The notes under the pieces are model-generated. The model saw only the letters and a list, made by a program, of their open reading frames with translations, was not told the origin of the DNA and searched no databases. 64,000 bases of DNA from Bacteroidota bacterium (GTDB lineage Bacteria; Bacteroidota; Bacteroidia; Flavobacteriales_D; Sanyastnellaceae). The position numbers and the translations under genes are program-made. Below are positions 53,188-61,237 of the stretch, piece after piece (positions within the stretch are counted from its first letter, which is position 1; each line of letters opens with the position of its first letter). The stretch is from the NCBI GenBank assembly GCA_002746975.1, contig NVXE01000002.1:1-64000 (forward strand), read 5' to 3'.

Positions 53188-53877
53188 ATGTCTAAACCAT
53201 TAAAACATCGTACTTGGGCCGAAATCATGTCGAAAGACAGTTGGTCCATTTTCAAAATCATGAGTGAATTTGTTGAGGGCTATGAAGCACTACAACGAAT
53301 CGGACCATGTGTCTCAATATATGGCTCTGCTAGAACAGGACCAGATACTCAAGTTTATAAAGATGCTCAAAGAGTAGCCAGCTTACTCGCAGAAGCTGGA
53401 TATGGGGTAATCACTGGAGGAGGACCAGGAGTTATGGAGGCCGGAAATCGAGGGGCTTTCGAAGCGGGAGGACCGTCAGTAGGTCTAAATATACAGCTGC
53501 CTTTCGAGCAGCACGATAATCCATACATCGATAGAGATAAAAGCATAGATTTCGATTATTTCTTCGTTAGGAAAGTTATGTTTGTGAAGTACAGCCAAGC
53601 GTTTGTAGTAATGCCTGGGGGGTTTGGTACTCTTGATGAACTTTTCGAAGCTCTCACCTTACTCCAAACAGGAAAACTAAATCACCGTCCTATTATTCTG
53701 TATGGGTCACATTTCTGGGGAGGACTAATTGAATGGTTTCGAGAGATTATGTTGAAGGAATATAAAACTATTTCCGAAAAAGACCCTGATTTACTTTATG
53801 TAGTAGATAGTCCAGAAGAAGCCGTGAAAGTAATTACTCAATACCATTCAAAATCAGATTTGAAACCAAATTTCTAA
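53188..53877 (+). CDS. LOG-family (TIGR00730) Rossmann-fold protein
   Basis: 229 residues. Contains the lysine-decarboxylase-like/LOG motifs GGGPGVMEAGNRGAFEAGG and PGGFGTLDELFE. Members are cytokinin-riboside-5'-monophosphate phosphoribohydrolases or related nucleotide hydrolases. The length and FEQHDNPYID/FDYFFVRK segments fit the group widespread in bacteria. Nine bp after uvrA, same strand. Confidence 0.92.
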   Translation: MSKPLKHRTWAEIMSKDSWSIFKIMSEFVEGYEALQRIGPCVSIYGSARTGPDTQVYKDAQRVASLLAEAGYGVITGGGPGVMEAGNRGAFEAGGPSVGLNIQLPFEQHDNPYIDRDKSIDFDYFFVRKVMFVKYSQAFVVMPGGFGTLDELFEALTLLQTGKLNHRPIILYGSHFWGGLIEWFREIMLKEYKTISEKDPDLLYVVDSPEEAVKVITQYHSKSDLKPNF

Positions 53878-53936: not shown

Positions 53937-53959
53937 TGCCATGGTGGCAGTTTATTTTT
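53937..53959 (+). terminator. Possible weak terminator after the LOG gene
   Basis: tgcca-tgg-tggca forms a 5-bp stem with 3-nt loop, followed by gtttatttttt. The stem is short, so this is a marginal candidate. It lies in the 143-bp gap before htpG. Confidence 0.25.
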
Positions 53960-54020
53960 TGTGCATAGTGATGGCATAGGACTTGCAGAGTAGTAGATAT
54001 AAAACAGAAAAAATAATACA

Positions 54021-55946
54021 ATGGCTACTACTGAAAAAACTAAAAAAGGAAGTATTAATGTAACTACGGAAAATATTTTCCCTATCATTAAAAAATTTCT
54101 TTACAGCGATCACGAGATTTTCTTAAGAGAACTTGTCTCTAATGCTGTTGATGCTACTCAGAAGCGTAAAACCATCGCTAAAGCTGGTGATATTGTTGAC
54201 TTTAAAGATGACAATCCCCAGGTGATTGTTAAACTTGATAAAGATGCGAAAACTATAACTATTTCAGATCAAGGTATAGGAATGACTGCTGATGAAATAG
54301 ATAAGTATATAAACCAAATCGCATTTTCAGGAGCTACTGAATTTTTAGACAAATACAAGGATGATGACGCTAAGCAGGCGATAATAGGCCACTTCGGTTT
54401 GGGTTTCTACTCTTCATTTATGGTTTCTGAACACGTAGATATTATATCATTAAGTGCAACCAAAGGCGCGAAAGCTGTTAAATGGAGTTGCGATGGGTCT
54501 CCTGACTATACTATTGAATCCGCAAAAAAGAAAGAAGTAGGTACTGATATCGTTCTACATATCGCAGAGGATTCATTAGAATTTCTTGAAGACGATAAGA
54601 TAGGCGGAATCTTAAACAAATACTGCAAGTTTATGCCTGTAGACATTGTGTTCGGTAAACGATCTATTCAAGAAGAAGATACATCGGGAGAAAAAGACGA
54701 GGAAGGAAATATTAAGCAAATAAGCAAAGAAATTGATAATGTTATCAATAACACTTCTCCAGCTTGGATGAAGAAACCTGCAGATTTGAATGAGGAAGAG
54801 TACACAAAATTCTATCGTGAACTCTACCCAATGAATATGGAAGATCCGTTGTTTAACATTCACTTAAACGTGGACTTTCCATTTAATTTAACCGGTATTT
54901 TGTACTTCCCTCCTTTGAAAAAACAGATGGACTTACAAAAGAATAAAATACATCTTTATTCAAATCAGGTCTTCATTACAGATAACGTAGATAACATAGT
55001 TCCTGATTTCTTGACTATGCTTCATGGAGTAATTGACTCACCAGACATTCCATTAAACGTTAGCCGTTCGTACTTACAGGAGGACGCAAATGTCAAGAAA
55101 ATATCTGGTTACATTTCGAAGAAAGTTGCGGATAAGCTTGCTAGTATGTTCAAGAAAGACAGGCCTGCTTTTGAGAGCCAATGGGACGATTTGAGAATAT
55201 TTGTTGAATACGGAATACTCACAGACGAAAAGTTCGCAGAACGTTCAAAAAAATTCTATTTATATAAGGATACTGAGGGTAAATGCATGACTCATGAGGA
55301 ATTAATTGAAGCGGTTGGGGAAACTCAAAAAGATAAAAGCGGTAAAATCGTATTCCCATACACATCTGACGCATCTGCTCAACACATGTTTGTAAAGGAC
55401 GCTACCGACAGAGGGTATAAGGTGCTTACTATGGAAGGTCCTTTAGCGGCTCACGTAGTTGGCTCTTTAGAACAAACACATACTGACATACAATTCAAGC
55501 GTGTTGATTCTGACATCATCGAAAAACTTATTGAAAAAGAAGACGATGATTCAACTAGCGCACTTGACGAATCCGCACAGAAAGAATTAACACCTATAGT
55601 ACAAGGGGCATTCCCGGAAAAAGGGTACGATATAAAGTTTGCTGCTATGTCACCTACCTCTGCTCCTTTCGTAATTACTCGTAGTGAGTGGATGCGTAGA
55701 ATGAAAGAACAGCAAGCTGTTGGTGGAGGAGGATTCCAAATGTTTGGTGATATGCCTGAGAAGTTTGATGTAACTGTTAATTCAAACCACCCTCTTGCAA
55801 CTCAACTTTTAAATGAAAAGGATGAGGAAAAACGATCTGCTACAGTTAAAGAGGCCGCTGATTTAGCTAGACTATCTCAAGGGATTCTTGAGGGAAAAGA
55901 ACTTGCAGAATTTATTTCTAGAGGTTTTAAGAACTTACAGTCATGA
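54021..55946 (+). CDS. htpG: Molecular chaperone HtpG (Hsp90)
   Basis: ATP-dependent homodimeric chaperone, 641 residues. The GHKL ATPase domain shows FLRELVSNAVDA, ISDQGIGMTADEI and GHFGLGFYSSFMVS. The middle domain has a catalytic-Arg region with NVSRSYLQED. The C-terminal dimerisation domain ends in LAEFISRGFKNLQS, without the eukaryotic MEEVD. No clear TAnnTTTG box or CIRCE element was seen upstream. Its stop overlaps the LemA start by 4 nt (ATGA), and four more closely spaced genes follow. Confidence 0.97.
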   Translation: MATTEKTKKGSINVTTENIFPIIKKFLYSDHEIFLRELVSNAVDATQKRKTIAKAGDIVDFKDDNPQVIVKLDKDAKTITISDQGIGMTADEIDKYINQIAFSGATEFLDKYKDDDAKQAIIGHFGLGFYSSFMVSEHVDIISLSATKGAKAVKWSCDGSPDYTIESAKKKEVGTDIVLHIAEDSLEFLEDDKIGGILNKYCKFMPVDIVFGKRSIQEEDTSGEKDEEGNIKQISKEIDNVINNTSPAWMKKPADLNEEEYTKFYRELYPMNMEDPLFNIHLNVDFPFNLTGILYFPPLKKQMDLQKNKIHLYSNQVFITDNVDNIVPDFLTMLHGVIDSPDIPLNVSRSYLQEDANVKKISGYISKKVADKLASMFKKDRPAFESQWDDLRIFVEYGILTDEKFAERSKKFYLYKDTEGKCMTHEELIEAVGETQKDKSGKIVFPYTSDASAQHMFVKDATDRGYKVLTMEGPLAAHVVGSLEQTHTDIQFKRVDSDIIEKLIEKEDDDSTSALDESAQKELTPIVQGAFPEKGYDIKFAAMSPTSAPFVITRSEWMRRMKEQQAVGGGGFQMFGDMPEKFDVTVNSNHPLATQLLNEKDEEKRSATVKEAADLARLSQGILEGKELAEFISRGFKNLQS

Positions 55947-56530
55947 ATACTTCAATGTTAAAGTGGCTAATTCCACTAGCTGTTATTTTACTTATAGGCA
56001 TGAATGCCAAAAGTAATTATAATGGTGCCGTCGATTCTGAAGAGCTTGTTTCAGAACAATGGGCTAATGTGGAGGCACAATATCAACGTCGATTTGATCT
56101 GATTCCAAACCTTGTCTCTACAGTAAAAGGGTATGCTGATATCGAGAAGGAGACCTTAATTGCAGTAACGGAAGCTCGTGCTTCGGCATTAGGAGCTATG
56201 AAGCGAGCTGGAGAGACTGGCGACCTTAGAGAGTTCGAACAATCTAATGTCGTACTAGGTGGTGCTATGCGAGGTCTACTGGGTTATACTGAACGATATC
56301 CAGACCTAAAGTCAAGTCAAGGATTTCGAGATTTACAAGTACAACTTGAAGGCACCGAAAATAGAATTACGAAAGCTAGAACCGATTTCAACGAAGTTGT
56401 CAAGGGATATAATAAGAAAATCCGACAATTCCCGGGAAAGATATGGGCTAGTCTTTTCGGATTTGAATCTAAAGAATACTTCGAGTCAACTACCGAAGCA
56501 GCCACTGCACCTACAGTGAGTTTTAAATAA
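55943..56530 (+). CDS. lemA: LemA-family membrane protein
   Basis: 195 residues: N-terminal membrane anchor (about 5-20; LKWLIPLAVILLIGMNAK), then the helical LemA domain with QWANVEAQYQRRFDLIPNLV, STVKGYADIEKETLIAVTEA and a FNEVVKGYNKKIRQFPG segment. The short N-terminal tail is cytoplasmic or extracytoplasmic depending on topology. LemA proteins commonly accompany TPM-domain proteins, as here. The stop is TAA, and the frame continues in register into the next gene after four sense codons. Confidence 0.95.
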   Translation: MNTSMLKWLIPLAVILLIGMNAKSNYNGAVDSEELVSEQWANVEAQYQRRFDLIPNLVSTVKGYADIEKETLIAVTEARASALGAMKRAGETGDLREFEQSNVVLGGAMRGLLGYTERYPDLKSSQGFRDLQVQLEGTENRITKARTDFNEVVKGYNKKIRQFPGKIWASLFGFESKEYFESTTEAATAPTVSFK

Positions 56531-56542
56531 AGCTGTTGTAAT

Positions 56543-56968
56543 TTGAAAAGTAATATCGATAGACTTAAAGTAGAAGACACTATTTCAAAGGCTGAAAAAA
56601 TAACTTCCGGTGAAATACGTGTGCACATAGATAGAAAGTGCAAAGGGGATGTAATGGATAGAGCCGCTTCTGTCTTTTCAACTTTAAATATGCATAAAAC
56701 TGAAGCTAGGAATGGTGTATTAATATACCTTTCTACAGAAAACAGAAAGTTTGCAATAATTGGGGATGGAGGCATTAATGAAAAAGTTCCTGATGGATTT
56801 TGGCAATCTACATACGATTCTGCACTACCATATTTAAAAAAGGGTGAATGGACTGAAGCTCTTTGCAGAGCTGTTGATAAATGTGGTGAAGTTTTGCGAG
56901 ATTATTTCCCATACGAGGAAGGCGATGTCAATGAACTTGATGATGGAATCTCATGGGGCGATGAATAA
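56543..56968 (+). CDS. TPM-domain protein without signal peptide or membrane helix, TTG start
   Basis: 141 residues with the TPM fold (TLP18.3/Psb32/MOLO-1): EKITSGEIRVHIDRKCKG, NGVLIYLSTENRKFAIIGD, GGINEKVPDGFW, then LCRAVDKCGEVLRDYFP. The acidic C-terminus ends GISWGDE. No ATG is available at the domain start; TTG at 56543 is the best initiator, and an internal ATG at 56654 would remove much of the first half. It is in the same frame as LemA, separated by its TAA and four codons. It overlaps the next gene by 8 nt. Confidence 0.85.
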   Translation: MKSNIDRLKVEDTISKAEKITSGEIRVHIDRKCKGDVMDRAASVFSTLNMHKTEARNGVLIYLSTENRKFAIIGDGGINEKVPDGFWQSTYDSALPYLKKGEWTEALCRAVDKCGEVLRDYFPYEEGDVNELDDGISWGDE

Positions 56969-57815
56969 ATTGAAAGTGATTTTGGTGACATTTTTAATGT
57001 CAATAGCCTTTTTTAGTTTAAATACTTTAGGCCAAACCTTAGGAGATGATTGCCTACCCCCTGCTATAGAAAACAAACTAGTTTATGATTTAGGCGACAT
57101 CCTATCTGATAAAGAAGAAATAGAAATTCAAAATGTACTATTAAGTTTTAAATCTTCTACAAGTAACACAATTGTTGTCGTTACGCACTTAGATTTTTGT
57201 GGATACGAACCATCAGTGTTTGCTATTGAAGCTGGCGATAAATGGGGAGTAGGTAGAGGTGATTTAGATAATGGAATTGTTATTGCATTAAAGCCACGAA
57301 ATGGGTCCGAGTCTGGAAAGATATTTATTGCTATTGGTGAGGGGTTAGAGGGTGCGATTCCGGATATTTTAACTGGTCGAATCGTGGATAAAATGACTCC
57401 TTCATTTAAGGAAGGAATGTGGTTTAATGGTTTGGCATTAGGAATTAATGACCTAATGAGTCTTGCAAGCGGAGAAATTTCAGAATCTGACTATTTAGCA
57501 AAATCTGAAAGTCAAAAAACTGATGGTCTAGCCGGGATGATTATCCTACTATTCTTTTTCCTTTTTGTTCCCATTTTGTCAGTAGGGTTGAATGTAAGGA
57601 GGGTGATGAATAGAAATAATCTAGCATTCGGTCTAGCTCTTGCAATGGTTTTTTCTGAAATGCAAAGGAGTCGTAATTCATACAATCAATTCACTCATGG
57701 AACTGGTCACTATCGTAGAGGAGGTGGGTTTGGAGGCGGTGGGTTTGGAGGTGGTGGATTTGGAGGATTCGGTGGTGGCGGGTTTGGTGGTGGTGGAGCT
57801 GGAGGAAGTTTTTAG
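56961..57815 (+). CDS. TPM-domain membrane protein with Gly-rich tail
   Basis: Start at ATG 56961 (MNKLKVILVTFLMSIAFFSL), overlapping the previous stop; the frame extends to 56844 inside that gene. About 284 residues. A signal peptide (ending NTLGQ) is followed by a TPM domain (YDLGDILSDKEEIEIQNVLL, NTIVVVTHLDFCGYEPSVFA, GIVIALKPRNG, GRIVDKMTPSFKEG). Then one membrane helix (about 190-210; MIILLFFFLFVPILSVGL) and a C-terminal GGGFGGGGFGG-type tail with a final GGSF. This is the YgcG-like layout. Partner of LemA by family association. Confidence 0.9.
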   Translation: MNKLKVILVTFLMSIAFFSLNTLGQTLGDDCLPPAIENKLVYDLGDILSDKEEIEIQNVLLSFKSSTSNTIVVVTHLDFCGYEPSVFAIEAGDKWGVGRGDLDNGIVIALKPRNGSESGKIFIAIGEGLEGAIPDILTGRIVDKMTPSFKEGMWFNGLALGINDLMSLASGEISESDYLAKSESQKTDGLAGMIILLFFFLFVPILSVGLNVRRVMNRNNLAFGLALAMVFSEMQRSRNSYNQFTHGTGHYRRGGGFGGGGFGGGGFGGFGGGGFGGGGAGGSF

Positions 57816-57838
57816 TCTCATTTTTAAACGATAATAAT

Positions 57839-58585
57839 ATGGCAGGATTTGGAAAATGGGTGGGTGGTGCACTTGGATGGGCTTTAGGGGGGCCTATAGG
57901 AGGAATTTTAGGTTATCAGGTTGGAAAACTATTCAGTTCTGGAGGCCAAACAAGTAATCCTTTTACACAGGGTCGCTCTCAAGGATTCCAAAATCGCACA
58001 ACTAATCCTGGTGACTTTGCAATGTCATTAGTAGTGCTTAGCGCTGCTGTAATGCAAGCTGATGGTAAGGTCCTTAAATCAGAACTCGATTTTGTAAAGA
58101 AATTCCTGAAACTGAATTTCGGAAGCACTCAAGCTGATCAATTACTCCTGTTGTTAAGAGAGGCGCTTAAACAACAAGTTGACATTAGAGGTGTTTCATC
58201 ACAGATTCGTTTTAACATGGATCACCCTAAAAGATTACTACTTCTTCAGTATCTATATGGGATATCGAAAGCTGATGGACATGTAGACAAGTCCGAGATA
58301 GATCTCATTAGAACTATCGCCCGTCACTTAGGTATTAGCGTAAAAGACATAGAAAGTATTGAAGAGCCTTTCCATTCTGGATCTCTAAACCCATTCAAAG
58401 TACTTGAAATAAATGAAGCATCGACTGATGCCGAGGTAAAGAAGGCATATCGCCGCCTAGCTATAAAATTCCATCCTGATAAAATTGGTGATCTAGGGGA
58501 AGGACCGCGAAAAAAAGCAAAAGAACGTTTCTTACAAGTTCAAGCAGCATATGAGCAAATAAAGAAGTCTAGAGGTTTTAAGTGA
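57839..58585 (+). CDS. TerB-like and DnaJ-domain protein (DjlA-like)
   Basis: 248 residues. A Gly-rich hydrophobic N-terminus (VGGALGWALGGPIGGILGYQ) may touch the membrane. Residues about 57-165 form a TerB-like helical domain (LVVLSAAVMQADGKVLKSEL, LQYLYGISKADGHVDKSEID). A C-terminal J domain (about 183-248) carries HPD in AIKFHPDKIGD. J domains stimulate Hsp70 (DnaK). This is the last gene of the htpG-LemA-TPM-TPM run, with 23 bp to the previous gene, so a chaperone or quality-control role is suggested by context. Confidence 0.92.
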   Translation: MAGFGKWVGGALGWALGGPIGGILGYQVGKLFSSGGQTSNPFTQGRSQGFQNRTTNPGDFAMSLVVLSAAVMQADGKVLKSELDFVKKFLKLNFGSTQADQLLLLLREALKQQVDIRGVSSQIRFNMDHPKRLLLLQYLYGISKADGHVDKSEIDLIRTIARHLGISVKDIESIEEPFHSGSLNPFKVLEINEASTDAEVKKAYRRLAIKFHPDKIGDLGEGPRKKAKERFLQVQAAYEQIKKSRGFK

Positions 58586-58619: not shown

Positions 58620-58627
58620 TACTTTTG
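58620..58627 (+). promoter_or_regulatory. TACTTTTG -7 box of the metalloprotease gene
   Basis: Perfect TAnnTTTG match ending nine bases before ATG 58637. A TTG that could extend the frame (58625) lies inside this box, which argues for the ATG start. Confidence 0.45.
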
Positions 58628-58636
58628 AAACCTATT

Positions 58637-61237
58637 ATGAGATTTAATACGAATACCCGCGCTACGTTTGCTTTTGCTACGTTAATGTTTGGTCTACAAA
58701 TGCTTGCTCCTTTAAATGCAGAAGCACAATTTTTTAAGAGAAACAAGAAGACTGAGCAATCTGAAGATAAGAAATCAAACTCTCCTAAACACAAGACAAT
58801 CAGCGAAATAACTAAAAACGCTGAAGAATTTGATGGATTGTTTACAATGTACCGTGATACCATTACTGGGGAGTCTTGGATGAGTATCTCAGAAGATGCT
58901 TTTACAAAAGAATTCATATACTTTTCCCAAGTTGAGGATGGTATTTTAGAAACAGGTAAATTTAGAGGGAGTTATGGGGCTAGTAAGGTGATCTCCTTTA
59001 ACAAAGAATACGAACGTATAGAAATTCTTCAAGAAAACACTCGTTATTATTTCAATCCAGAAAGCCCCCTTTCGAAAGCGGATAATGCAAATATCAACAC
59101 ACCGATTCTTGCCAGTTTAAAAATTGTAGCAAAAGATAAAGCAACAGATAGTACCGAAACTAAGTACTTAGTGTCAGGAGATTTGATCTTTTTAAGCGAA
59201 AAAATTTCAATGATTAAACCTCCTAGTCATGGGCCTAGAAAAAGTGCACTCGGGAAACTTTCTAAGGATAAAACTAAGATTTTAGAAATCAATAATTATC
59301 CTGAAAACCTTGAGGTTGTTGTTGATTACTTTTTTGACAATCCTAACCCTAGTGGAAGGTCTAGCGCATTTACTGATTCAAGATACATTTCCGTGAGTTA
59401 CAGACACGCTCTTCTGCAAATGCCTGAAGAGGACGGTTTTACTCCTAGAAAAGACGATGCGAGAATTGGATATTTCATGACTCAGGTAAACGACATGACT
59501 AGTCCTGATTTAACGCCGTGGAATGACATGATACACAGGTGGAGATTAGAGAAAAAAGATCCTGAAGCTGCGCTTTCTGAACCTGTAAAGCCTATTACTT
59601 GGTGGATAGAAAACACCACGCCTTATGAGTTTAGAGATTATATAAAAACTGGAGTAGAAAAATGGAATTTAGCTTTTGAAAAAATTGGCTTCAAGAATGC
59701 AATAGTTGTAAAAATTCAGCCTGATGATGCTGATTGGGATGCTGGAGATATTAGATATAATGTCCTTAGATGGACCTCCTCTCCTTCTACTCCATTCAGT
59801 GGATATGGACCAAGTTTTGTCAATCCTAGAACTGGTGAGATTTTAGGTGCTGATGTAATGTTAGAGTTTGCAGGTATGGCTGGTAGACTTTGGAAAGCCG
59901 GAGTATTTGAAACAGATGGAATGCGATTATCAACACGTGAAAGAACAGCCCAGATGATAAACATGTGTAATGCGGGGAGTGTTATGGCTGAAAATACATT
60001 GTTCTCGCTTGCGGCAATGCAAGTTCTTTCTTTTGACGATAGTGATCACGATGAATTTATACGCCAAACCTTACACAGACTTTCTCTACATGAAGTTGGA
60101 CACACATTAGGATTCAGTCATAATATGCACGCTAGTACTATGCTCTCGCCTGATGAATTGAAAGATCCTGAAGTAGTAGCGTCAAACGGAATGTGCAATA
60201 GTGTTATGGAATATCCTGCTATAAATTTCGCGCGAAATCCTGAAGATCAAACACTTTACTATGACGATTCACCGGGTCCATACGACTATTGGATTGTCGA
60301 GTACGGTTATAGTACTGGCCTTGATGATGCTGAGGCAGAAGATGCCAGACTCGAGGCAATTCTCTCCAAATCTACTTCTCCCCTATTGCAGTTCGGAAAT
60401 GACGCTGACGATATGCGAAGAGCCGGTTCAGGGATTAACCCAGATGTTAACATCTACGACCTTTCAAATGACCCAGTGGCATATGCTTCAGAACGTTGTG
60501 AACTTGTAAATGATTTATTAGGTGATTTTGTAGAAAAATTTACTGATTCAGGGAAAACATACAATGAAGTAAGGACTGCATACCTTTCTCTTACTGGAGA
60601 ATATGCTGTGCAGCTTAGAGTAATGACTCGTCAAATTGGTGGAGTTCGATACAATAGGTCTGGAACTAAGTTCATGGATGGAAATACTCCGTTTACTCCT
60701 GTTTCCTTAAAAGACCAAAAGGCCGCCCTCGCCGCCCTAGACAAGTATGCTTTTTCTCCTAACGCATTCGATGCTGCTAATGATTGTTACGCATACTTAC
60801 AACAACAACGTCGCGGCTTCGGGTTCTTCGGCAAAGGTGAGGCTCCGAGAATTCACTCCCGAGTTCTTTCAGCTCAAAAGGGCGCGCTGGCTCACCTACT
60901 TCATCCTGTAGTTCTTCAACGCCTCACCGACTCAGGCATGTACGGCAACGAATACGATATCGCGACATACATGAACGATCTTACCGACGCAATATTTAAA
61001 TCAGACCTTCGCAAGTCCGTTAACACATTCAGACAACAGCTTCAAGTAACTTACGTAGAGGCACTTATAAATGCTCTAGACGTAAAGAAAAAATACGATA
61101 GAATAGCGAGGGGTGTTATACTTCAACAGTTAAATAATATCGACAGAGTTGAAAAAAACGCATACTCTCCTGATAATTTAACTAGCGCACACAGATCACA
61201 CATTCGTCATCTTATTGACCAAGCATGGCAGCACTAA
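58637..61237 (+). CDS. Secreted zinc-dependent metalloprotease (DUF5117/DUF4953 type)
   Basis: 866 residues from ATG 58637 (MRFNTNTRATFAFATLMFG), with a signal peptide ending NAEAQ. The central catalytic site is HEVGHTLGFSH, the HExxHxxGxxH metzincin pattern. N-terminal DUF5117-like beta region includes FIYFSQVEDGILETGKFRGS; the C-terminal helical DUF4953-like region ends LTSAHRSHIRHLIDQAWQH. Full length for the family. A GC-rich block (about 60715-61020; hand counts 50-57% per 60 bases) interrupts the otherwise AT-rich gene. Confidence 0.9.
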   Translation: MRFNTNTRATFAFATLMFGLQMLAPLNAEAQFFKRNKKTEQSEDKKSNSPKHKTISEITKNAEEFDGLFTMYRDTITGESWMSISEDAFTKEFIYFSQVEDGILETGKFRGSYGASKVISFNKEYERIEILQENTRYYFNPESPLSKADNANINTPILASLKIVAKDKATDSTETKYLVSGDLIFLSEKISMIKPPSHGPRKSALGKLSKDKTKILEINNYPENLEVVVDYFFDNPNPSGRSSAFTDSRYISVSYRHALLQMPEEDGFTPRKDDARIGYFMTQVNDMTSPDLTPWNDMIHRWRLEKKDPEAALSEPVKPITWWIENTTPYEFRDYIKTGVEKWNLAFEKIGFKNAIVVKIQPDDADWDAGDIRYNVLRWTSSPSTPFSGYGPSFVNPRTGEILGADVMLEFAGMAGRLWKAGVFETDGMRLSTRERTAQMINMCNAGSVMAENTLFSLAAMQVLSFDDSDHDEFIRQTLHRLSLHEVGHTLGFSHNMHASTMLSPDELKDPEVVASNGMCNSVMEYPAINFARNPEDQTLYYDDSPGPYDYWIVEYGYSTGLDDAEAEDARLEAILSKSTSPLLQFGNDADDMRRAGSGINPDVNIYDLSNDPVAYASERCELVNDLLGDFVEKFTDSGKTYNEVRTAYLSLTGEYAVQLRVMTRQIGGVRYNRSGTKFMDGNTPFTPVSLKDQKAALAALDKYAFSPNAFDAANDCYAYLQQQRRGFGFFGKGEAPRIHSRVLSAQKGALAHLLHPVVLQRLTDSGMYGNEYDIATYMNDLTDAIFKSDLRKSVNTFRQQLQVTYVEALINALDVKKKYDRIARGVILQQLNNIDRVEKNAYSPDNLTSAHRSHIRHLIDQAWQH

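Follow-up and report, generated by a model that had tools for sequence, protein, structure and literature searches.

Five genes at positions 54021-58585 of the window (the whole stretch of 64,000 nucleotides analysed here) encode the Hsp90 chaperone HtpG, LemA, a soluble TPM protein (TPM1), an exported membrane TPM protein (TPM2) and a TerB/J-domain protein (TerBJ). They are packed in an operon-like manner, and their succession is conserved in several families of the taxonomic order to which the window belongs. Herein, the run is interpreted, with confidence at the middle of the scale, as an operon for an inner-membrane Hsp70/Hsp90 relay of a DjlA-like J protein and HtpG, to which LemA-TPM would add a module for assembly or quality control.

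Architecture of the locus

The successive junctions of the run are -4, +12, -8 and +23 nt. The features of the locus are as follows:

53937..53962, + strand: terminator-like hairpin and T-rich stretch between a LOG-family gene and htpG (from a consensus scan only)
54021..55946, + strand: htpG, Hsp90 chaperone of 641 aa (NF003555; Pfam HSP90 and HATPase)
55943..56530, + strand: lemA, 195 aa, N-terminal hydrophobic anchor and LemA domain (PF04011; PDB 2etd)
56543..56968, + strand: TPM1, 141 aa, TTG start, stand-alone soluble TPM domain (PF04536)
56961..57815, + strand: TPM2, 284 aa, signal peptide, TPM domain, transmembrane helix and Gly/Phe-rich tail with a GGSF end
57839..58585, + strand: terBJ, 248 aa, DjlA-like, N-terminal Gly-rich hydrophobic segment, TerB domain and C-terminal J domain with HPD
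58637..61237, + strand: met-zincin protease gene (DUF4953/DUF5117; PF16313, 248.5 bits)

The ATG start of TPM2, giving an 8-nt overlap with the TPM1 stop, was picked by eye. The ORF list, Pfam and NCBIfam bear out the reading frames, domains, overlaps and spacing of at most 23 nt described in the original prediction; its interval of 55943-58585 covers lemA to terBJ but omits htpG, which its own text names. The met-zincin gene (ORF 58625-61237, start assumed at 58637) is read in the same direction as terBJ and comes after it, and one also lies directly 3' of terBJ in G086, G056, G059, G068, G083, G116 and L087. Possibly, it is the last gene of the unit in the subclade of the window, and the hairpin at 53937..53962 is a possible upstream limit.

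The five genes would be read from one transcript. A sigma-70-like scan yields 17 promoter-like sites versus 17.8 expected by chance, the best of which (10/12) lies inside lemA at 55995-56023. Terminator-like sites number 11 on both strands versus 3.4 expected. Two of these are on the + strand in lemA, one internal (55962-55977) and one a hairpin of five pairs at the gene's end (56503-56518); if real, they weigh against a single unbroken transcript, and they are counted against the relay. Bacteroidota promoters follow a -33/-7 consensus. Among the loci with the full gene order, it was found in 0/21 cases upstream of htpG, 0/23 before lemA and 0/23 before terBJ, and in loci of arrangement state C it occurs once before terBJ (1/13). 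That no promoter of the Bacteroidota type was found before htpG is also counted against the relay. A search for CIRCE-like patterns gave a single short match, in G011.

Recurrence and modularity of the gene order

The sample of the window's taxonomic order comprises 120 genomes from 53 genera and 13 families, and all 77 genomes with a TPM match were typed for TPM. The succession htpG-lemA-TPM-terBJ on one strand is present in 31/120 genomes, spread over 20/53 genera and 7/13 families; hence, the arrangement is not peculiar to the window genome. The 4-nt overlap of htpG and lemA is seen in the window and in G089. The surroundings are far less stable. In between-genus pairs from 23 loci with the full gene order, homology extends to the first and second upstream genes in 11/206 and 4/186 pairs and to the first and second downstream genes in 15/227 and 7/187 pairs, so that flanking genes are shared in only 2-7% of pairs. 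Chance is excluded for the gene order because it recurs in 31/120 genomes while the flanks turn over, a difference that is also counted in favour of the relay.

The arrangement is modular. htpG is followed by terBJ with no lemA-TPM between them in 58/120 genomes (directly in 42, with a longer gap in 16), and the two frames overlap by 4 nt in G049, G056, G059 and G068 and by 1 nt in G083 and G116. Since 19 of the 33 htpG-terBJ genomes that lack TPM also lack LemA, the chaperone pair persists without the lemA-TPM block, which is counted against the relay. So is the location of the block elsewhere in 25/120 genomes, where lemA-TPM-TPM usually still forms a run of its own; three of these 25 (G002, G084, G105) contain an atypical pair of a LemA-like protein and TPM. 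Partial forms include htpG-LemA-TPM with terBJ elsewhere (12/120) and LemA-TPM-terBJ with htpG elsewhere (3/120). One of the latter, G013, resembles a full order split by a contig boundary, as its htpG opens another contig and is truncated at the C terminus; without it, two genomes from a single genus remain. G025 (state D) may be another such split. The partial forms and the frame overlaps with and without the block are counted in favour of the relay. With htpG-terBJ, htpG-LemA-TPM and LemA-TPM-terBJ each present in the absence of the rest, a fixed five-gene module is not supported.

Outside the taxonomic order, 125 genomes of the phylum were sampled. LemA is found in 109/125 and TPM in 104/125 of them, and lemA precedes TPM on one strand in 99 of the 104 genomes holding both. 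Loci with two TPM genes number at least 24 among the matches listed. Within 5 kb, htpG is linked to LemA in 0/76 and to TerB in 0/19 of the genomes holding both members, and LemA is linked to TerB in 0/22. A comparison across Bacteroidota, which had been proposed as a check, thus upholds the arrangement within the order, and no such linked pair appears in the 125 genomes beyond it, which rules out a phylum-wide five-gene module. Links of LemA-TPM to chaperones were encountered in the order of the window and in a few neighbouring hosts only. L093 and L100 contain LemA-TPM1-TPM2-terBJ with htpG on a different contig, and L146 contains htpG-LemA-TPM1-TPM2 with terBJ 2.3 kb further on; all three hosts fall outside the rows of the order in the HtpG tree.

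A tentative account, possible rather than probable, explains this pattern by expression linkage only: an old operon brought lemA-TPM-TPM and terBJ under the control of the htpG promoter so that stress would induce them, giving a common regulon with no common pathway, and inertia and steady break-up did the rest. It fits the HtpG tree, on which one ancient arrangement with many break-ups would account for the five arrangement states (at least 17 changes among 50 rows of the order). The three hosts outside these rows and the LemA-TPM pairs of the phylum sample, which have neither htpG nor TerB as neighbours, also agree with it; the latter are counted against the relay. However, the five genes remain together in 31/120 genomes with flanks almost fully replaced, the relocated block tends to stay intact, and the htpG and terBJ frames overlap in genomes near the window, none of which speaks for mere inertia.

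Proteins of the run

HtpG matches NF003555 with 609 bits, above the cut-off of 371 bits. LemA is covered by PF04011 over the full model (1-149 of 149; 177 bits, cut-off 26.2) and matches PDB 2etd with an E value of 1.6e-39; a lipobox is present by pattern in 10/40 LemA proteins. TPM1 matches PF04536 with 78.6 bits (cut-off 22.1) and the BA42 structures 2lt2, 2mpb and 4oa3 with E 2.3e-31, and 37/40 of the TPM1 proteins show no transmembrane segment. TPM2 starts with a signal-peptide-like segment and matches PF04536 with 85.8 bits (cut-off 22.1) and BA41 (PDB 5anp) with E 2.4e-25. Its tail is kept to the final residue in relatives, and a loose end pattern fits 40/41.

TerBJ combines PF05099 (68.2 bits) with PF00226 (50.4 bits). 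The HPD motif and, by hydropathy, the N-terminal hydrophobic segment are present in 49/49 TerBJ proteins, which is counted in favour of the relay, together with the lack of a transmembrane segment in most TPM1 proteins and the LemA lipobox. All 16 aligned relatives match the DjlA equivalog NF006948 at E of 0.001 or below (best E 8.1e-38). In the structure model, residues 1-52 have a pLDDT below 50, and Foldseek ranks 2h5n (TerB-like) and J domains highest, all of them at E of 0.001 or more.

The matches to BA42 and BA41, the closest TPM proteins of solved structure, are the starting point of an unlikely alternative, in which a signalling or metabolic module is built from two metal-dependent phosphatases or nucleotidases, TPM1 and TPM2, with LemA as scaffold, and TerBJ and HtpG only keep them folded. 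Titles in the reference list of PMC9478572, from the BA42/BA41 work, attribute phosphatase and ATPase/ADPase activity to TPM domains of this kind, and these are counted against the relay. On the other side, a PSP survey (PMC11237479), which presents the function of TPM as disputed between phosphatase and membrane-complex assembly, favours assembly and cites PspA neighbourhoods for a chaperone-like role. The neighbours at the window locus are chaperones, and the Pfam scan of nine neighbouring proteins revealed no kinase, cyclase or regulator. The relay reading leans towards a chaperone-like role of TPM rather than a phosphatase one.

Proposed mechanism of the relay

In the relay, TerBJ would act as a DjlA-like, membrane-anchored co-chaperone that recruits DnaK to the inner membrane face, and HtpG from the same transcript would receive clients from DnaK. 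The lemA-TPM1-TPM2 products would form a separable module alongside, which may assemble, repair or sort protein complexes linked to the membrane. LemA and the domain of TPM2 probably face the periplasm; hence, HtpG would have to be reached via the membrane, via TPM1 or via the TPM2 tail. Both TPM1 and this tail, which is rich in Gly/Phe, are predicted to be cytoplasmic, and a block that spans the membrane in this way could hand clients to the chaperones or signal stress to them. The rise of lemA (log2FC 1.22) and of a TPM gene (2.21) upon sppA deletion in Flavobacterium columnare is counted in favour of the relay; htpG goes unmentioned in the main text of that paper (PMC13236525), which is counted against it. 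In iron-depleted B. thetaiotaomicron, htpG and a LemA gene are both raised, as separate entries in PMC10434189.

A more elaborate version, which we consider improbable, makes LemA-TPM1-TPM2 a trans-membrane client adaptor, in which LemA and TPM2 would sense the folding state in the periplasm and the block would pass it on to DnaK and HtpG. Classical DnaJ has a Gly/Phe region and a client domain. TerBJ ends with its J domain and thus lacks both, and the TPM2 tail would supply the Gly/Phe and client functions in trans.

History of the block

At several starred positions, the tree of the lemA-TPM-TPM block conflicts with that of HtpG. Family f1 falls into two parts, one of which groups with f3, f9 and f10; both copies from f3 nest with one from f9; and the copy of G116, on a 4.2-kb contig that may be mis-binned, nests with G080. 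These conflicts are what supports the least probable reading, namely that the block travels between genomes and came to lie between htpG and terBJ, by landing there or by replacement at that site, for no functional reason. Several points speak against it. The copy in the window clusters with that of G049, a member of the same subclade; the copies of f3, f9 and G116 are not located at htpG; and insertion at random would not put the block between one and the same gene pair in 7 families. Among the eight genomes of the window's subclade, the block is absent in five and elsewhere in two (G049, G116). No common flanking gene was detected for these two relocated copies; hence, an old exit and return into an empty site is not required for the window lineage. 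Repeated loss or exit is simpler, with the direction of change unreadable from the trees. The window and G086, of the same genus, with and without the block, offer a natural comparison.

An anti-phage defence system finds no support, since PADLOC gives only weak TmtA matches to the N-terminal region of HtpG and none to the other four proteins.

Comparison with known systems

LemA and TPM are widespread in the phylum and the role of TPM is disputed; the conserved run adds independent evidence from gene context on the side of assembly or quality control. The recurrent order suggests that LemA and TPM may help to build or police membrane proteins. No description of htpG adjoining LemA/TPM or TerB-J was found in openly licensed papers, and a narrow literature search returned no paper on a bacterial Hsp90 paired with a specific membrane J protein, which is the pairing of this locus.

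As in other Bacteroidota LemA-TPM pairs, lemA precedes TPM on the same strand; unlike these, the block of the window lies between htpG and terBJ, a position seen in none of the sampled genomes outside the order. By sequence, TPM1 resembles BA42 of Bizionia argentinensis in being a stand-alone TPM protein, and TPM2 resembles BA41 of the same organism in combining TPM with a further C-terminal part. Systems of the B. subtilis PspA-YdjG-YdjH type likewise place a membrane TPM protein beside proposed chaperone-like partners, as described in PMC11237479. Unlike there, the partners in the window are an Hsp90 and a J protein, and the Pfam scan of the nine neighbouring proteins gave neither PspA nor a band-7 protein. 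The closest relative of TerBJ in layout is E. coli DjlA, which according to PMC11709261 consists of an N-terminal membrane segment, a TerB-like middle and a C-terminal J domain without a client domain, helps DnaK and, when overproduced, acts on the inner-membrane Rcs proteins; this layout and the role with DnaK are counted in favour of the relay. TerBJ shares the order of segments and the HPD motif. It differs from DjlA in scoring below the equivalog cut-off (102.1 versus 162 bits) and in that its gene adjoins htpG, with or without LemA-TPM.

Gene organization of the locus

The original prediction of a five-gene order with overlapping or close junctions is borne out. The genes htpG, lemA, TPM1, TPM2, and terBJ (the last encoding a DjlA-like TerB and J-domain protein) are joined at −4 (htpG/lemA), +12 (lemA/TPM1), −8 (TPM1/TPM2), and +23 nt (TPM2/terBJ), with the TPM2 start at 56961 chosen by eye. 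All five proteins score above the curated domain cut-offs in the profile search. The region comprises:

ends at 53877, LOG-family gene upstream of htpG, followed by a terminator-like hairpin (consensus scan)
54021–58585, + strand, five-gene run htpG, lemA, TPM1, TPM2, terBJ (ORFs and domain matches)
55962–55977, terminator-like site (consensus scan)
56503–56518, terminator-like hairpin at the end of lemA, ahead of TPM1 (consensus scan)
58637–61237, met-zincin protease gene, starting 39 to 51 nt past terBJ, depending on the start chosen

The two terminator-like sites at 55962 and 56503 count against a single transcript; 11 such sites occur in the region versus 3.4 in shuffles. The met-zincin gene directly follows terBJ in the window. 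Its subclade includes seven further genomes: in six (G086, G056, G059, G068, G083, and G116) the gene holds the same position, and in the seventh, G049, it lies 4.1 kb beyond terBJ. Because of this position across the subclade, the unit may extend to an exported protease. A HExxHxxGxxH-type site is seen by eye in the met-zincin.

Arrangements within the order

A sample of 120 genomes of Flavobacteriales_D, the window's own among them, was searched for LemA, HtpG, TerB, and TPM, which at the E limits used were matched in 93, 115, 117, and 77 genomes, respectively; HtpG and TerB are both present in 113. The gene order recurs across these genomes rather than being confined to the window (state A).

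Arrangement states among the 120 genomes
State A, htpG-lemA-TPM-terBJ: 31 genomes (20 genera, 7 families)
State B, htpG before terBJ, lemA-TPM elsewhere: 25 genomes
State C, htpG before terBJ, genome without TPM: 33 genomes (19 without a LemA match, 14 with)
State D, htpG-lemA-TPM, terBJ elsewhere or not found: 12 genomes
State E, lemA-TPM-TPM-terBJ, htpG elsewhere: 3 genomes
None of these: 16 genomes

In 89 genomes, htpG lies ahead of terBJ within 3.5 kb. The match-to-match distance between the two in states B and C (n = 58) is ≤329 nt in 42 genomes and 452–1673 nt in 16; most of the longer gaps read contain an opposite-strand gene (G011, G014, G053, G060, G099), and that of G005 holds short ORFs only. 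Three of the state B genomes (G002, G084, G105) carry an atypical LemA-like/TPM pair. Genome G013 (state E) resembles a full order severed by a contig end; without it, state E is confined to two genomes of a single genus. The same may apply to G025 (state D). Since contig ends hide links, the linked counts are lower bounds.

For exact junctions, 60 regions were fetched and scanned with local profiles, taking the most upstream possible ORF starts. At sites near the window that lack the lemA-TPM1-TPM2 block, htpG and terBJ overlap by 4 nt in G049, G056, G059, and G068 and by 1 nt in G083 and G116; they are 74 nt apart in G086, which is the window's only congener in the sample. Among 23 block-bearing loci, hand counts give an htpG-lemA distance of ≤30 nt in 15 and a TPM2-terBJ distance of ≤32 nt in 16. 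In some loci of families f3, f10, and f11, terBJ is immediately preceded by an ORF on the opposite strand; the five listed here resemble DUF6934 weakly, none of them reaching the Pfam cut-off:

L204:4382–4885, opposite strand, weakly DUF6934-like
L216:4825–5265, opposite strand, weakly DUF6934-like
L214:3996–4412, opposite strand, weakly DUF6934-like
L201:4309–4731, opposite strand, weakly DUF6934-like
L196:4758–5192, opposite strand, weakly DUF6934-like

Conservation and possible movement of the block

Between genera, the first neighbors of the 23 state A loci are homologous in 11/206 pairs upstream and 15/227 downstream, and the second neighbors in 4/186 and 7/187; hence, the surrounding gene order was lost where the block was kept. 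The five core genes are homologous in 249/249 pairs, but these loci were selected for having the order.

On the HtpG tree (64 rows, 50 from the order), the order's rows require a minimum of 6 changes in whether the block adjoins htpG or terBJ and a minimum of 17 among the five states; the window (state A) is sister to G086 (state C) with a support of 100. The block tree (40 rows) departs from it by splitting family f1 in two parts, one of which groups with f3, f9, and f10. Both f3 copies of lemA-TPM-TPM (L211, L215) nest with an f9 copy, a pattern expected if all three genes had been transferred together. The copy of G116 (L191:1686–3513, on the 4.2-kb contig C150) groups with G080 and not with its host's nearest relatives, possibly by transfer or as a mis-binned contig. 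The disagreement as a whole could stem from transfer, from replacement of the block in place, from mis-binning of the G116 contig, or from errors in a tree built on short proteins.

Occurrence outside the order

The phylum sample comprised 128 genomes, of which 125 lie outside the order. Of those outside genomes, 104 hold both lemA and TPM, and in 99 of these a same-strand TPM gene lies downstream of lemA at a distance of no more than 1.3 kb. Pairs within 5 kb were found in none of the outside genomes with both partners, namely 0/76 for htpG-LemA, 0/19 for htpG-TerB, and 0/22 for LemA-TerB, where TerB denotes the domain, sometimes without a J domain. From 567 loci of TerB-J relatives, 80 named ones were taken and partner genes sought with local profiles; they were found at 11 and not found beside terBJ at 69, many on short contigs:

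htpG-terBJ: L087, L090, L126, L151, L152, L165
full order htpG-lemA-TPM-terBJ: L088, L106 (the contigs of L088 and of G004 in the order sample are equal in length and may be one record)
htpG-LemA-TPM-TPM, terBJ 2.3 kb further: L146
LemA-TPM-TPM-terBJ: L093, L100

On an HtpG tree, the order's sequences and those of Flavobacteriaceae form a group (supports 98 and 91) from which HtpG of the L093, L100, and L146 hosts is excluded; accordingly, either the arrangement predates the order and broke up, or the links arose more than once. The order itself does not come out as a single clade there, since Flavobacteriaceae nest within it.

Protein features

TPM1 matches BA42 and TPM2 matches BA41. LemA has a hydrophobic N terminus in 40/40 rows (hydropathy) and a lipobox in 10 of them by pattern or 12 by eye, which would place the LemA domain in the periplasm in lipobox-bearing species. 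By hydropathy only, TPM1 is without a transmembrane segment in 37/40 rows, and TPM2 has two hydrophobic segments in 33/41. The last 45 residues of TPM2 are ≥40% Gly in 35/41 rows, and its tail (57690–57815) is kept to the last residue, as GGGGAGGS[WF] in most printed rows, with 40/41 fitting a loose end pattern; this conservation suggests a specific ligand for the C terminus.

Sixteen aligned TerB-J relatives share 38–79% identity with the window's protein, and the DjlA model matches all 16, the window's protein being below its cut-off. The predicted TerB-J structure has a mean pLDDT of 71.9 (residues 1–52 under 50); its best matches, all with E of 0.001 or more, are J domains and the TerB-like Porphyromonas gingivalis protein 2h5n.

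Proposed function and comparison with known systems

The locus is real, conserved, and modular; its function we infer. As HtpG and the DjlA-like protein are recurrent partners, the likeliest reading is that the two would form a membrane client relay, with which LemA-TPM would work as an assembly or quality-control module. A chaperone-like assembly role was proposed for TPM in a survey of PSP systems (PMC11237479). The main competing explanation is that the genes are expressed together under stress but their products do not work together. Upon sppA deletion in Flavobacterium columnare, lemA and a TPM gene rise, which the authors read as membrane stress (PMC13236525); htpG does not appear in the main text of that paper. 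The relay reading draws on Escherichia coli DjlA, which assists DnaK and, when overproduced, alters interactions of inner-membrane proteins (PMC11709261). The TerB-J protein has the same layout as this DjlA, and the locus as a whole is a new arrangement of known parts.
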